From Hydrogenophaga intermedia (lineage in GTDB: Bacteria > Pseudomonadota > Gammaproteobacteria > Burkholderiales > Burkholderiaceae_C), in contig CAMDCY010000005.1 of the NCBI GenBank assembly GCA_945890705.1, positions 1-47,432 of the forward strand: a DNA stretch of 47,432 bases, given 5' to 3'. Below are positions 16,935 through 34,674 of the stretch, piece by piece. Made by a program: the position numbers and the translations under genes. Position 1 is the first letter of the stretch; each line of letters begins with the position of its first letter. Below the pieces are notes generated by a model that ran no database searches, was not told where the DNA came from, and saw only the letters and a program-made list of their open reading frames with translations.

Positions 16935-18395
16935 ATGATCAATCAAGCGTCCACCCAGTCCCGTCTCTCCACCGCCCAAGCCAGCTTACTCGATCCCTTT
17001 GGTTTGACGCCCGCCTTGTTGCAGCGCGCCTTGGGCGAGATCATGGCGCGTGGCGTGGACGACGCCGACCTGTACTTTCAAACCACGCGCAGCGAAGGCT
17101 GGAGCTTGGAAGAAGGTATTGTCAAAACCGGCAGCTTCAGCATCGACCAAGGCGTGGGCGTGCGCGCGGTCAGTGGCGAGAAAACCGCCTTTGCCTATTC
17201 CGACGATTTGTCGTGGAGCGCCTTAATCGACGCGGCCCACACGGTGCGCACCATCGCCAACCAAGGCCAACAAGGGCGCGTGAAAATCGCCCGCACCCGG
17301 GTGGCGTCTTCGCGCTCCTTGTACCCCGCGGTGGACCCCATCGCCACTTTGGACAGCACCCAAAAAGTCGCCTTGCTGGAGCGCGTGGAGCGCTTGGCCA
17401 AGGCCAAAGACCCGCGCGTGGTGCAGGTCATGGCCGGTTTGGCGGCCGAGCACGACGTGGTCTTGGTGGCCCGTGCCGACGGCACCATGGCCGCCGATGT
17501 GCGCCCTTTGGTGCGCCTGTCGGTCACGGTGATCGCCGAGCAGGCCGGTCGCCGCGAGGTCGGCTCGGCCGGCGGCGGTGGTCGTTACGGCTTGGCCTAT
17601 TTTGACGACGCCATGGTGCAGTCTTACGTGGACGAGGCCGTGGCCTCGGCCTTGACCAACCTGGACGCGCGTCCCGCGCCGGCCGGTGAAATGACCGTGG
17701 TGTTGGGCGCGGGCTGGCCGGGCATTTTGTTGCACGAAGCCGTGGGCCATGGCTTGGAGGGCGACTTCAACCGCAAAGGCTCCAGCGCGTTTGCGGGGCG
17801 CATCGGCCAGCGCGTGGCGGCCAAGGGCGTGACCGTGCTCGACGACGGCACCATCGCCGACCGCCGCGGCTCGCTCAACATCGACGACGAGGGCAACACC
17901 ACCCAGCGCAACGTGTTGATTGAAGATGGCATCTTGCGCGCCTACATCCAAGACGAACTCAACGCGCGCCTGATGGGCGTCAAGCCTACCGGCAACGGTC
18001 GCCGCGAGAGCTACGCCCACGTGCCCATGCCGCGCATGACCAACACCTACATGCTCGGCGGCGACAAAAGCCCCGAAGAAATCATCGGCAGCATCAAGAA
18101 GGGCTTGTACGCGGCCAACTTCGGCGGTGGCCAAGTCGACATCACCTCGGGCAAATTCGTGTTCTCCGCCAGCCAAGCGTATTGGGTGGAAAACGGCCAA
18201 ATCCAATACCCGGTCAAGGGCGCCACCTTGGTTGGCAGCGGCCCAGAATCGCTCAAAAAAGTCAGCCTGATCGGCAACGACATGAAGCTCGACTCGGGTG
18301 TGGGCACCTGCGGCAAAGAAGGCCAGAGCGTGCCGGTGGGCGTGGGCCAGCCCACGCTGCGCGTGGACGGTTTGACCGTGGGCGGCACGGCCTGA
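16935..18395 (+). CDS. tldD: Metalloprotease subunit TldD
   Basis: TldD is the zinc-bearing subunit of the TldD/TldE (PmbA) protease, known for processing modified peptides such as microcin B17 and for CcdA turnover. The 486-residue product contains the zinc motif HEAVGHGLEGDF near residue 265, the upstream block RREVGSAGGGGRYGLAYF, and the C-terminal PVGVGQPTLRVDGLTVGG. Length fits the family. The partner gene is not in the window. The start was chosen at MINQAST because the longer frame lies within the preceding gene and a -10-like box sits directly before this ATG. Confidence 0.95.
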   Translation: MINQASTQSRLSTAQASLLDPFGLTPALLQRALGEIMARGVDDADLYFQTTRSEGWSLEEGIVKTGSFSIDQGVGVRAVSGEKTAFAYSDDLSWSALIDAAHTVRTIANQGQQGRVKIARTRVASSRSLYPAVDPIATLDSTQKVALLERVERLAKAKDPRVVQVMAGLAAEHDVVLVARADGTMAADVRPLVRLSVTVIAEQAGRREVGSAGGGGRYGLAYFDDAMVQSYVDEAVASALTNLDARPAPAGEMTVVLGAGWPGILLHEAVGHGLEGDFNRKGSSAFAGRIGQRVAAKGVTVLDDGTIADRRGSLNIDDEGNTTQRNVLIEDGILRAYIQDELNARLMGVKPTGNGRRESYAHVPMPRMTNTYMLGGDKSPEEIIGSIKKGLYAANFGGGQVDITSGKFVFSASQAYWVENGQIQYPVKGATLVGSGPESLKKVSLIGNDMKLDSGVGTCGKEGQSVPVGVGQPTLRVDGLTVGGTA

Positions 18396-18417
18396 ACGGC
18401 CTGAGGCCAGCTTGTGC

Positions 18418-18423
18418 TAAAGT
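18418..18423 (+). promoter_or_regulatory. -10-like TAAAGT before the aroG leader peptide
   Basis: TAAAGT, preceded by TGC (extended -10 type), ends seven bases before the ATG of the leader peptide. If used, the leader transcript would start at or next to the leader ATG. No convincing -35 is visible in the end of tldD. Confidence 0.42.
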
Positions 18424-18430
18424 GATTCCC

Positions 18431-18502
18431 ATGAAACGCATCGCTTTCTTTGCTTTTTATTTTTGGTTCTCAGTCCCCGGCGGACGAGAGGCGATGCTGT
18501 AA
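18431..18502 (+). CDS. Aromatic leader peptide of the aroG attenuator
   Basis: A 23-residue frame begins MKRIAFFAFYFWFS and ends in a TAA at 18500 to 18502. Eight consecutive codons (6 to 13) read Phe, Phe, Ala, Phe, Tyr, Phe, Trp, Phe: five Phe, one Tyr and one Trp. That is the hallmark of a ribosome-mediated attenuator sensing charged aromatic tRNAs, like the E. coli PheL and TrpL leaders. It sits directly upstream of a strong intrinsic terminator and then a DAHP synthase gene. The peptide itself probably has no other function. Confidence 0.85.
   Translation: MKRIAFFAFYFWFSVPGGREAML
18468..18489 (+). promoter_or_regulatory. Attenuator 1:2 hairpin and antiterminator segment
   Basis: TCTC-A-GTCC (18468 to 18476) can pair with GGACGAGA (18482 to 18489), giving an eight-pair hairpin with one bulge just after the aromatic codons. 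Inside it, CCGGCGG (18477 to 18483) is an exact copy of the 3' arm of the terminator and can pair fully with the terminator 5' arm CCGCCGG (18525 to 18531). A ribosome stalled on the aromatic codons would open the first hairpin and free this segment to form an antiterminator. The pairing is visible in sequence; the mechanism is inference. Confidence 0.7.
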
Positions 18503-18521
18503 GCAAACCCCGATCTCGATC

Positions 18522-18556
18522 AAACCGCCGGCCCTCACAGCCCGGCGGTTTTTTTT
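18522..18556 (+). terminator. Intrinsic terminator of the aroG attenuator
   Basis: AAACCGCCGG (18522 to 18531) pairs perfectly with CCGGCGGTTT (18542 to 18551), a ten-pair stem with a ten-base loop. Eight T residues (18549 to 18556) follow the G/C part of the stem. It stands 20 bases after the leader stop and 36 bases before the aroG ATG, so it would stop transcription before aroG when aromatic tRNAs are charged. Confidence 0.9.
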
Positions 18557-18592
18557 GACCCATCAACCGTTTGATTTTTTCAGGAGACCCCG

Positions 18593-19708
18593 ATGAACGC
18601 CAACCCCACCCGCGACACCGCGTATTCGCGTCCTGCCGACAAGACCAGCCGCACTGACGACGAACGCATCCAGGACATCACCGTGTTGCCCCCTCCCGAA
18701 CACCTCATCCGCTTTTTCCCCATCGCTGGCACGCCGGTGGAGCAACTCATTGGGCAAACCCGCCAACGCATATCGCGCATCTTGCACGGCCAAGACGACC
18801 GCCTCTTGGTCATCATCGGCCCCTGCTCGATCCACGACCCTGCCGCCGCCATCGATTACGCGCGCCGCTTGAAGCCCTTGCGCGACCAATACGCCGACAG
18901 CCTGGAAATTGTGATGCGGGTCTACTTCGAAAAGCCACGCACGACCGTGGGCTGGAAGGGCTTGATCAACGATCCCTACTTGGACGAGAGCTTCCGTATC
19001 GACGAAGGCCTGCGCATGGCGCGCCAATTGCTCATTGAGATCAACCGCTTGGGCTTGCCTGCGGGCAGCGAGTTCTTGGACGTGATCAGCCCGCAGTACA
19101 TCGGCGACCTGATCAGCTGGGGCGCCATCGGTGCGCGCACCACCGAAAGCCAGGTGCACCGCGAATTGGCCTCGGGTTTGTCGGCGCCCATCGGTTTCAA
19201 GAATGGTACCGACGGCAACATCAAAATCGCCACCGACGCCATCCAAGCCGCAGCACGCGGCCACCACTTTTTGTCGGTGCACAAAAACGGCCAAGTGGCC
19301 ATTGTGCAGACCAAGGGCAACCAAGACTGCCACGTGATCCTGCGCGGCGGCAAGGCCCCCAACTACGACGCAGCCAGCGTGGCCACGGCCGTGGCCGATT
19401 TGTCGGCATCCCAATTGGCCCCGCGTTTGATGGTGGACTGCAGCCACGCCAACAGCAGCAAACAGCACGAGAAACAACTCGAGGTGGCGCGCGACATCGC
19501 GGGTCAAATCCGGGGCGGCTCGCGCAGCATTTTCGGTGTCATGATCGAAAGCCACATACAAGCGGGTGCGCAAAAGTTCACCCCCGGCAAAGACCGCGTG
19601 GACGCCTTGACCTACGGCAAAAGCATCACCGACGCTTGCTTGGGTTGGGACGATTCTTTGGCCGCCTTGGACGTGTTGTCACAGGCGGTGATCGCGGCCC
19701 GCGCTTGA
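18593..19708 (+). CDS. aroG: 3-deoxy-7-phosphoheptulonate (DAHP) synthase, class I
   Basis: This enzyme condenses phosphoenolpyruvate and erythrose 4-phosphate, the first committed step to Phe, Tyr and Trp. The 371-residue product has class I motifs: LLVIIGPCSIHDP near residue 65, YFEKPRTTVGWKGLINDP, WGAIGARTTESQ, GFKNGTDG, and the metal ligands in VDCSHANSSK and IFGVMIESH. Length and N terminus fit the AroF/G/H type; which end product inhibits it cannot be read with certainty. A strong Shine-Dalgarno CAGGAG (18581 to 18586) precedes the ATG. Regulation by the upstream attenuator is strongly suggested. Confidence 0.96.
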   Translation: MNANPTRDTAYSRPADKTSRTDDERIQDITVLPPPEHLIRFFPIAGTPVEQLIGQTRQRISRILHGQDDRLLVIIGPCSIHDPAAAIDYARRLKPLRDQYADSLEIVMRVYFEKPRTTVGWKGLINDPYLDESFRIDEGLRMARQLLIEINRLGLPAGSEFLDVISPQYIGDLISWGAIGARTTESQVHRELASGLSAPIGFKNGTDGNIKIATDAIQAAARGHHFLSVHKNGQVAIVQTKGNQDCHVILRGGKAPNYDAASVATAVADLSASQLAPRLMVDCSHANSSKQHEKQLEVARDIAGQIRGGSRSIFGVMIESHIQAGAQKFTPGKDRVDALTYGKSITDACLGWDDSLAALDVLSQAVIAARA

Positions 19709-33291: not shown

Positions 33292-34674
33292 ATGGCATCA
33301 GCCTTGTCCGAACGCCTATCTGGCATCGTCAAAACCCTGCGCGGTCAGGCCCGCATCACCGAAGACAACGTGGCCGAGATGCTGCGCGAGGTGCGCATGG
33401 CCTTGCTGGAGGCCGACGTGGCCTTGCCGGTGGTGCGCGACTTCATCGCCCGCGTCAAAGAAAAAGCCTTGGGTGAAGAGGTGGTGGGCTCGCTCACGCC
33501 GGGCCAGGTCTTGGTCAGCATCGTCAACCGCGAACTCGCCGCCACCATGGGCGAGGGCGTGGCCGACATCAACCTCGCGGCCCAGCCGCCCGCGGTCATC
33601 TTGATGGCCGGCTTGCAAGGTGCCGGTAAAACCACCACCACCGCCAAGCTGGCCAAACACCTGATCGAGAAGCGCAAAAAGAAGGTGCTGACCGTCTCGG
33701 GCGACGTGTACCGCCCCGCGGCCATCGAACAGCTCAAGACCGTGAGCGCCCAAGCCGGTGCCGAGTGGTTCCCCAGCTCGCCCGACCAAAAGCCCGCCGA
33801 CATCGCGCGCGCCGCGCTCGACCACGCCAAGCGCCATTTCTTTGACGTCTTGCTGGTCGACACCGCCGGTCGCCTGGCCATCGACGAAGCGCTGATGCGC
33901 GAGATTCAAGAACTGCACGGTGTGCTCAAACCGGTGGAGACCCTGTTCGTGGTCGATGCCATGCAAGGTCAAGACGCGGTCAACACCGCCAAGGCCTTCA
34001 GCGACGCTTTGCCCCTGACCGGCATCATCCTGACCAAAACCGACGGCGACTCGCGCGGCGGTGCAGCCCTGTCGGTGCGCCACATCACCGGTGTGCCCAT
34101 CAAGTTCGCCGGTGTGTCTGAAAAAATCGACGGCTTGGAGGTCTTCGATGCCGAGCGTCACGCTGGGCGCATTTTGGGCATGGGTGACATCGTTGCGCTG
34201 GTCGAGCAAGTCACCTCCAACATGGACATGGCCGCGGCGCAAAAGCTCGCCGCCAAGGTCAAGAGCGGCGGCGGCTTTGACCTCAACGACTTCTTGGCCC
34301 AGTTGCGCCAAATGAAACAAATGGGCGGCTTGTCCAGCCTTATCGACAAACTGCCGGGCGCCATGGCCTCCAAGGCCTCGGGCATGGACATGGGCCGCGC
34401 CGAGCGCGACATGAAGCGCAAGGAAGGCATCATCTGCAGCATGACTGCCAAAGAGCGCACGCGCCCAGACATCATCAAGGCCACGCGCAAAAAACGCATC
34501 GCCGATGGCGCGGGTGTTCAGGTGCAGGAGGTCAACCGCTTGCTCAAAGAGTTCGAGCAAATGCAAGGCATGATGAAAAAAATGCAGGGCGGCGGCATGA
34601 TGAAAATGATGAAGCGCATGGGCGCCATGAAAGGCATGCCCGGCATGCCGAAGCTGCCGGGCATGGGCTCTTGA
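33292..34674 (+). CDS. ffh: Signal recognition particle protein Ffh
   Basis: Ffh binds 4.5S RNA and signal sequences and delivers ribosomes to FtsY at the membrane. The 460-residue product has the N domain (MASALSERLSGIVKTLRGQ), the G domain with GLQGAGKTTTTAKLA near residue 107, DTAGRLAIDEAL, TKTDGDSRGGAALS and the closing GMGDIVALVEQ, then a methionine-rich M domain that ends in a run of Met, Lys and Gly. The 4.5S RNA gene is not in the window. The stop TGA overlaps the next ATG by one base. Confidence 0.97.
   Translation: MASALSERLSGIVKTLRGQARITEDNVAEMLREVRMALLEADVALPVVRDFIARVKEKALGEEVVGSLTPGQVLVSIVNRELAATMGEGVADINLAAQPPAVILMAGLQGAGKTTTTAKLAKHLIEKRKKKVLTVSGDVYRPAAIEQLKTVSAQAGAEWFPSSPDQKPADIARAALDHAKRHFFDVLLVDTAGRLAIDEALMREIQELHGVLKPVETLFVVDAMQGQDAVNTAKAFSDALPLTGIILTKTDGDSRGGAALSVRHITGVPIKFAGVSEKIDGLEVFDAERHAGRILGMGDIVALVEQVTSNMDMAAAQKLAAKVKSGGGFDLNDFLAQLRQMKQMGGLSSLIDKLPGAMASKASGMDMGRAERDMKRKEGIICSMTAKERTRPDIIKATRKKRIADGAGVQVQEVNRLLKEFEQMQGMMKKMQGGGMMKMMKRMGAMKGMPGMPKLPGMGS

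Follow-up and report, generated by a model that had tools for sequence, protein, structure and literature searches.

A conserved aromatic leader peptide and a predicted transcription attenuator ahead of the DAHP synthase gene in Hydrogenophaga intermedia and related bacteria

Introduction

DAHP synthase carries out the committed step toward Phe, Tyr and Trp, and in enteric bacteria its regulation is known for protein repression. A preliminary description of a 47,432-nucleotide stretch of Hydrogenophaga intermedia DNA (contig CAMDCY010000005.1, hereafter the window; the source assembly comprises 1.92 Mb in 128 contigs and is 83% complete) proposed that a DAHP synthase gene is instead preceded by an attenuator with an aromatic leader peptide. 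We asked whether a conserved RNA switch stands ahead of this gene and, as the question of greater interest, whether its leader truly weighs all three aromatic amino acids. Such an element would allow multivalent attenuation and leaderless leader peptides to be put to the test, and is a target for genome annotation.

Results

Organization of the DAHP synthase locus

The putative regulated gene, located at 18593..19708 on the forward strand, as are tldD and all parts of the leader, codes for a 3-deoxy-7-phosphoheptulonate (DAHP) synthase of the aroFGH family (TIGR00034, 533 bits against a cut-off of 173). It is called aroG here after the preliminary description. The assignment to DAHP synthase held, while the score for the AroG-specific model stayed below its cut-off (536 versus 568 bits) and that for the AroH subfamily model exceeded it (508 versus 463), so that neither the name aroG nor the allosteric or feedback type is settled. 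Since the next long frame lies on the opposite strand, the gene probably stands alone. Its upstream neighbour, tldD (16935..18395, NF008006; start codon chosen by us), is outside the element. A leader RNA of about 125 nt lies between the end of tldD at 18395 and the start of the DAHP synthase gene at 18593, and 35 nt separate tldD from the leader frame.

The leader ORF, MKRIAFFAFYFWFSVPGGREAML, has 23 codons (18431..18502; ATG at 18431, stop TAA at 18500-18502) and contains, at 18446..18469, the codons Phe Phe Ala Phe Tyr Phe Trp Phe, seven aromatic codons within a run of eight; a cluster of end-product codons in a short ORF is what an attenuator is expected to carry. A protector hairpin (1:2), derived from per-locus folds, occupies 18463..18494 with a core at 18467-18490; it begins at the Trp codon, and its 5' arm lies under and just 3' of the last sensor codons. 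Within the loop and 3' arm of this hairpin is region 2, CCGGCGG (18477..18483), the putative antiterminator strand, whose exact complement CCGCCGG is included in the 5' arm of the terminator. The terminator hairpin (3:4; 18522..18551) has ten pairs (stem 18522-18531 / 18542-18551), a loop of 10 and an energy of -16.4 kcal/mol, and with the run of eight T at 18549..18556 forms an intrinsic terminator spanning 18522-18556. Thus the frame, the hairpin just after the aromatic codons, the competing CCGGCGG copy and the terminator with its T run, all read from this DNA in the preliminary description, were recovered. As in known attenuators, a terminator lies between leader and gene, an alternative antiterminator pairing would exclude it, and a protector overlaps or follows the sensor codons.

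Evidence from the window by itself was moderate. A density of at least seven aromatic residues in ten arises twice in its six frames, and the aromatic run is therefore unconvincing on its own; the other such stretch, WPAWRWWWFY, lies at 33655 on the minus strand. The folding energy of the leader was moderately better than that of shuffled sequences (z -2.17), 7 of 200 shuffles being equally good. A simple consensus scan of the window, in which terminator loops of 3-8 were allowed, reported neither a promoter nor a terminator at the leader. At the window leader no Rfam 15 amino acid leader family matched above its gathering score, and the T-box model gave no match in the Rfam library scans. Since the single-window statistics are only moderate, conservation in relatives decided that the element is real.

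Conservation and distribution of the element

The first comparison covered 110 DAHP synthase loci, made up of the best 80 among 589 named relatives and the top 30 from a family search (the window's own locus included), a composition that biases the set to near relatives. A leader with at least five aromatic residues in ten, together with an intrinsic terminator before the gene, was present in 91 of the 110 (61 of the 80 named relatives and all 30 from the family search), which bears out the expectation of conserved aromatic codons in relatives. The 91 include the window's locus (L084) and two pairs with identical leader stretches, L051/L085 and L068/L071, each member being counted. Named carriers belong to Hydrogenophaga, Ramlibacter, Polaromonas, Variovorax, Acidovorax, Limnohabitans, Rhizobacter, Burkholderia, Caballeronia, Massilia and Janthinobacterium. 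The 19 loci not counted were L022 (excluded, no upstream DNA), L028, L032, L033, L037-L039, L048, L050, L053, L060, L073, L076, L077, L078, L079 and L081-L083. Among them, the Comamonadaceae locus L028 carries a leader, MRTTVRYHFWHFHIQHLTGAGVANA, with several His codons amid fewer aromatic ones, 163 nt 5' of the DAHP synthase start and with an intact terminator. L078, on a contig labelled Anaerolineae that may be misbinned, has an aromatic leader before DAHP synthase and a strong hairpin without a clear T run.

Searched with a covariance model derived from 55 of these 91 loci, the window's genome gave a single full-length match (101 bits) and, at E<=1, 20 partial ones. The same model detected a full-length copy in 96 of 100 sampled family genomes and never two per genome. 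The four genomes without a copy were G055, with no DAHP synthase match; G043, whose best DAHP synthase match is 60% identical and starts at a contig end; G074, whose best match reaches just E = 3.4e-56; and G093, which is 55% complete and has a best match of 63% identity. Many family genomes carry a second DAHP synthase gene, and no ORF with four aromatic residues in ten was found in any of 20 regions upstream of such genes (taken from matches of 57-64% identity in the family search; one, L222, is merely 318 bases long). Three Polynucleobacter loci have no room for the element because tldD ends too close to the gene.

Across the order, at least 64 of 250 genomes, from 14 of 50 family codes, carry a full-length match at E<=1e-7, a lower bound because the stricter search filters lose weak matches; under these filters no element was detected at that threshold in the other 186. 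All 64 matches precede a DAHP synthase gene, and 63 have a leader with at least four aromatic residues in ten, the remaining one (L178) having three. Seven weak full-length matches (E 1e-6 to 9e-5) appeared among the order matches listed. One is antisense over the true copy in genome G102. Of the other six, five lack a neighbouring DAHP synthase gene, and at L190 such a gene is present but does not lie downstream. When 232 genomes were sampled across the class, only one further family emerged (f60), with full-length matches at E<=1e-6 in two genomes. The order of this family, presumably Xanthomonadales, contained a full-length match in 18 of 81 genomes, and all 13 copies that were examined precede DAHP synthase, with leaders such as FYFWYYFPKPLAEEG. 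Every copy with examined flanks (77/77, being 64 plus 13) thus lies before a DAHP synthase gene.

Composition of the sensor codons

The sensor block was defined as the codons 11 to 3 before region 2, giving 792 codons in 88 loci; three of the 91 loci, in which more than 60 nt separate region 2 and the ATG, were omitted from this and the ribosome-mask analyses. Aromatic codons numbered 579 of the 792, a fraction of 0.73 in the leader frame versus 0.23 and 0.18 in the other two frames. This frame dependence weighs against the proposal that the structure is a simple tldD terminator accompanied by a chance T-rich reading frame. The proximity of tldD would suit that proposal: in 67 of the 91 loci a same-strand tldD match ends within 1 kb of where the DAHP synthase gene starts. 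However, leader and terminator persist in the 24 loci where no tldD was found directly upstream (in some the available DNA ends), and both the aromatic frame and region 2 are conserved. We consider it extremely improbable.

The block is 58% T, which would suit an alternative in which an unstructured U-rich tract is selected at the RNA level (for Rho, Hfq or a small RNA) and the aromatic codons are a by-product. The frame dependence counts against this reading as well. Moreover, 72 of the 74 TGN codons are TGG and two are TGC, TTA is absent and TTG occurs three times, a TGG excess with almost no TGY or TTR that U-richness alone does not explain. Relative to codon-position composition, Trp was observed 72 times against 12.8 expected (about 5.6-fold), Cys 2 against 77 and Leu 16 against 67; the Trp excess with depletion of Cys and Leu argues for selection on aromatic residues, Trp included. 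Weak sub-threshold matches to Rfam small RNAs might speak for the U-rich tract, but none of 11 Burkholderia-group loci matched the weakly matching Burkholderia families at E up to 0.1, and this explanation, too, is very improbable. The two families concerned, BcKCsr2 and ncS025, had matched the window weakly over their full length and were dropped as chance on account of those 11 loci.

Phe was the commonest residue of the block (354 codons), followed by Tyr (153) and Trp (72). The 143 distinct leaders comprised 91 with Phe, Tyr and Trp, 48 with Phe and Tyr, three with Phe only and one with Phe and Trp, so that Trp is missing from 51. Both the predominance of Phe and the leaders lacking Trp would be expected if the same attenuator effectively sensed only Phe, perhaps with Tyr, while the Trp codon, and Tyr where its tRNA is never limiting, contributed little. 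The Corynebacterium glutamicum leader peptide AroR, which has Phe-Tyr-Phe and is unaffected by Tyr availability according to the excerpted text of PMC11802643, points the same way. Set against this are the roughly 5.6-fold excess of Trp with Cys almost absent, and the presence of Trp in 100 of 153 loci with 21 state changes on a quick tree. Phe codons in the 91 leaders were TTT in 261 cases and TTC in 140, as raw counts not set against genome usage.

Alternative base pairings

The five-base core of the antiterminator was paired in 144 of 153 loci (87/91 of the first set and 57/62 of the second) and unpaired by the rule used in the other nine. All seven Watson-Crick pairs between region 2 and the terminator arm were present in 59% of the 91 loci, compared with 1.3% when the region was shuffled and 0.3% when the arm was scrambled. 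Among the 55 aligned sequences the terminator pairs were found in 97.3% of cells and the antiterminator pairs in 94.5%, with 14 cells altered on both sides; none of 500 shuffles was as high, and the antiterminator value fell to 15-57% when the partner was slid by 1-3 columns.

The arm variant CCGCCAG occurred most often with region 2 CTGGCGG (31/58). All four loci with the arm CCGTCGG have CCGACG in region 2 and CGTC, with T there too, in the partner strand of the protector, while the other terminator arm kept G, giving a G-U pair. The preliminary description had suggested compensatory changes in the arms as a check; conserved and compensating arms were indeed found, but the case became thin once descent was allowed for. 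The terminator-arm position changed about eight times on the quick tree. Averaged over six independent pairs, region 2 changed in the same direction in 1.8, in the opposite direction in 0.1 and did not differ in 4.1; a sign test on these six pairs was not significant, and the G-to-A change in region 2 happened once. Compensatory covariation after allowing for descent is accordingly weak, though its direction is consistent.

A firmer argument comes from the codon frames of region 2, which fall into groups of 55, 33 and 3 among the 91 loci, the core GGCGG being read as Pro-Gly-Gly, Thr-Ala-Ala or Leu-Ala-Asp. Since the core is kept in different codon frames, it is the RNA and not the peptide that is conserved at region 2. 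In L012, L029, L030, L031 and L104 the leader stop lies directly 3' of region 2 (Gly-Gly-stop); a ribosome terminating there would lie over region 2, which is not so in most other loci.

RNAalifold on a MAFFT alignment predicted the terminator alone, and the protector was therefore assessed locus by locus. In 89 of 91 local minimum-energy folds region 2 has two or more bases paired upstream, and in 63 three or more, figures that stand without a shuffled control.

Predicted promoter and start of the leader RNA

A predicted extended -10 element (TGC TAAAGT, 18415..18423), based on sequence and position statistics, ends 7 nt 5' of the leader start codon. Of 153 upstream regions, 87 have a TGnTAnnnT motif that ends 6-9 nt 5' of the leader start codon; over 200 rounds of shuffling the count averaged 0.9 and never exceeded 4. 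A similar box, TGTGCTATCAAT, was seen in several of the 13 second-order copies. Transcription is expected to start at about 18430-18431, roughly 0-2 nt before the AUG. The window leader has no Shine-Dalgarno-like motif upstream, and such 4-mers precede the leader in only 3 of 153 loci, being absent from 150. An extended -10 so close to the start codon and the rarity of Shine-Dalgarno-like motifs suggest that many lineages probably have a leaderless leader mRNA, a point that goes beyond the preliminary description. The leaderless form is not universal, since Burkholderia- and Massilia-like loci have, as judged by eye, a -10-like box about 35-40 nt upstream instead.

Inspection by eye of the 60 nt 5' of the leader start showed repeated TGTCA-like words in L011, L018, L095, L096, L103 and L105. 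These are perhaps a protein-binding site additional to the attenuator.

Predicted ribosome position and mode of action

The ribosome footprint was masked codon by codon in the 88 loci and the remaining RNA was folded at equilibrium. The mean antiterminator probability fell from 0.91 with the ribosome four codons ahead of region 2 to 0.61 at three codons and 0.03 at two; further on it was zero until the ribosome was about eight codons past region 2. Aromatic frequencies at four, three and two codons before region 2 were 0.77, 0.38 and 0.0. The aromatic codons thus end where, in this model, a stalled ribosome would begin covering the antiterminator, and varying the front edge of the footprint from 11 to 16 nt shifts the switch by about one codon either way. 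This geometry, in which the sensor codons are so placed that a stalled ribosome leaves the antiterminator free, fits stalling as the ON state. Trp lies nearest the switch point, being found at five codons before region 2 in 45% and at four codons in 30% of the 88 loci, and this position also weighs against sensing of Phe alone.

The conservation, the pairings and the position of the sensor codons support the attenuator proposed in the preliminary description, and we hold with high confidence that the element controls the DAHP synthase gene as a classical ribosome-mediated transcription attenuator. The aromatic leader very probably turns the gene up when Phe, Tyr or Trp run short. From the parts, their positions and the alternative pairings we infer the following course for translation, stalling and readthrough. 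Transcription would begin at the leader ATG or immediately beside it, and the 5'-terminal start codon would receive a ribosome. A shortage of charged tRNA for Phe, for Tyr or, in leaders with a Trp codon, for Trp would make the ribosome stall on the aromatic codons and cover the 5' arm of the protector, leaving region 2 (CCGGCGG) free to capture the 5' arm of the terminator (CCGCCGG), and RNA polymerase would read into the gene. When all are plentiful, the ribosome would run over region 2, or would finish and let the protector form; with region 2 covered or held in the protector, the terminator would form and transcription would end before the gene.

Without a ribosome, the antiterminator probability was 0.96 for the window and 0.47 on average over the 88 loci, and with a ribosome at the stop codon it was 0.79 for the window. 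The equilibrium model of these 88 loci shows no terminated default state in the absence of a ribosome, so that the OFF state would need cover by a moving ribosome or early folding of the protector.

A single leader may plausibly sense Phe, Tyr and Trp alike. The fuller proposal is that a single leaderless 5'-terminal ORF merges the charging of three aromatic tRNAs into one decision at the entry enzyme of the shikimate pathway, and that this RNA integrator is old, near-universal in the family (96/100), present in a second order and used in place of or beside protein repressors; we put it forward tentatively, as having close to an even chance. Effective sensing of Phe, perhaps with Tyr, by the same attenuator is a serious contender, though one we would not expect to prevail.

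Discussion

The enteric pheL, trpL and his leaders have protector, antiterminator and terminator hairpins and a Shine-Dalgarno sequence before the leader, and the his leaders, attenuators of the same type, are single-amino-acid sensors. The trpL leader of Sinorhizobium meliloti senses Trp only, which is a difference from the element described here. Multivalent leaders are known from the enteric ilvGMEDA and thr operons, where branched-chain or Thr/Ile codons are combined in one leader; the present element would resemble these in having codons for several amino acids in a single leader, here aromatic ones.

The preliminary description held that this is not a textbook system. As far as the name is concerned this stood: the element was not found in the literature searched, from which subscription journals were mostly outside scope, and it had no Rfam 15 match at curated thresholds. 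The excerpted text of a premature-terminator screen (PMC2965389) makes no mention of DAHP or aromatic, and leader peptide, aroG and phenylalanine are not mentioned in two papers on Burkholderia cenocepacia transcripts (PMC4603805, PMC5688073), the second of which tabulates 82 short 5'UTR transcripts. In the excerpted text of a 2005 survey of Actinobacteria, no conserved RNA structure is recorded ahead of the phenylalanine or tyrosine operons (PMC1262725). The principle of attenuating a DAHP synthase gene through an aromatic leader peptide, however, is not new: C. glutamicum aroR-aroF is a reported case and Acholeplasma aroF a proposed one (both discussed below), and attenuation of Escherichia coli aroF was once hypothesised, as a passage of PMC8632094 recounts. 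The element is therefore new as a named element, as far as searched, known in kind, and widespread.

With the enteric pheL-pheA and trpL-trp systems, as outlined in the excerpt of PMC11802643, the element shares runs of cognate codons, and it differs from them in that they are single-amino-acid sensors. The leader RNA of S. meliloti trpL, an attenuator before trpE(G), starts with the AUG of the leader ORF, and its products rnTrpL and peTrpL act in trans, according to the excerpt of PMC7298713; the present element is likewise an attenuator with a start predicted at the leader AUG. By analogy with this precedent, the terminated leader RNA or the peptide might also act in trans on other genes, but the peptide outside the aromatic block differs between lineages, and we regard such action as improbable.

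The Acholeplasma uORFC-13-1 motif before aroF, with a proposed Phe-containing uORF and a terminator (PMC8632094, excerpt), resembles the attenuator described here in having a uORF with Phe and a terminator before DAHP synthase. Unlike it, uORFC-13-1 has a ribosome-binding site, names Phe alone and is limited, in that excerpt, to Acholeplasma and environmental sequences. In C. glutamicum an aromatic leader peptide attenuates the DAHP synthase gene in aroR-aroF (PMC11802643, PMC4046766; original report Neshat et al. 2014), and AroR, with its Phe-Tyr-Phe, responds to Phe and not to Tyr (PMC11802643), as given in the excerpted texts. The C. glutamicum system belongs to another phylum, and no Trp codon is mentioned beside Phe-Tyr-Phe in those excerpts; an aromatic-codon leader before DAHP synthase and ribosome-mediated attenuation, which is predicted here, are common to both, and the likeness is one of design.
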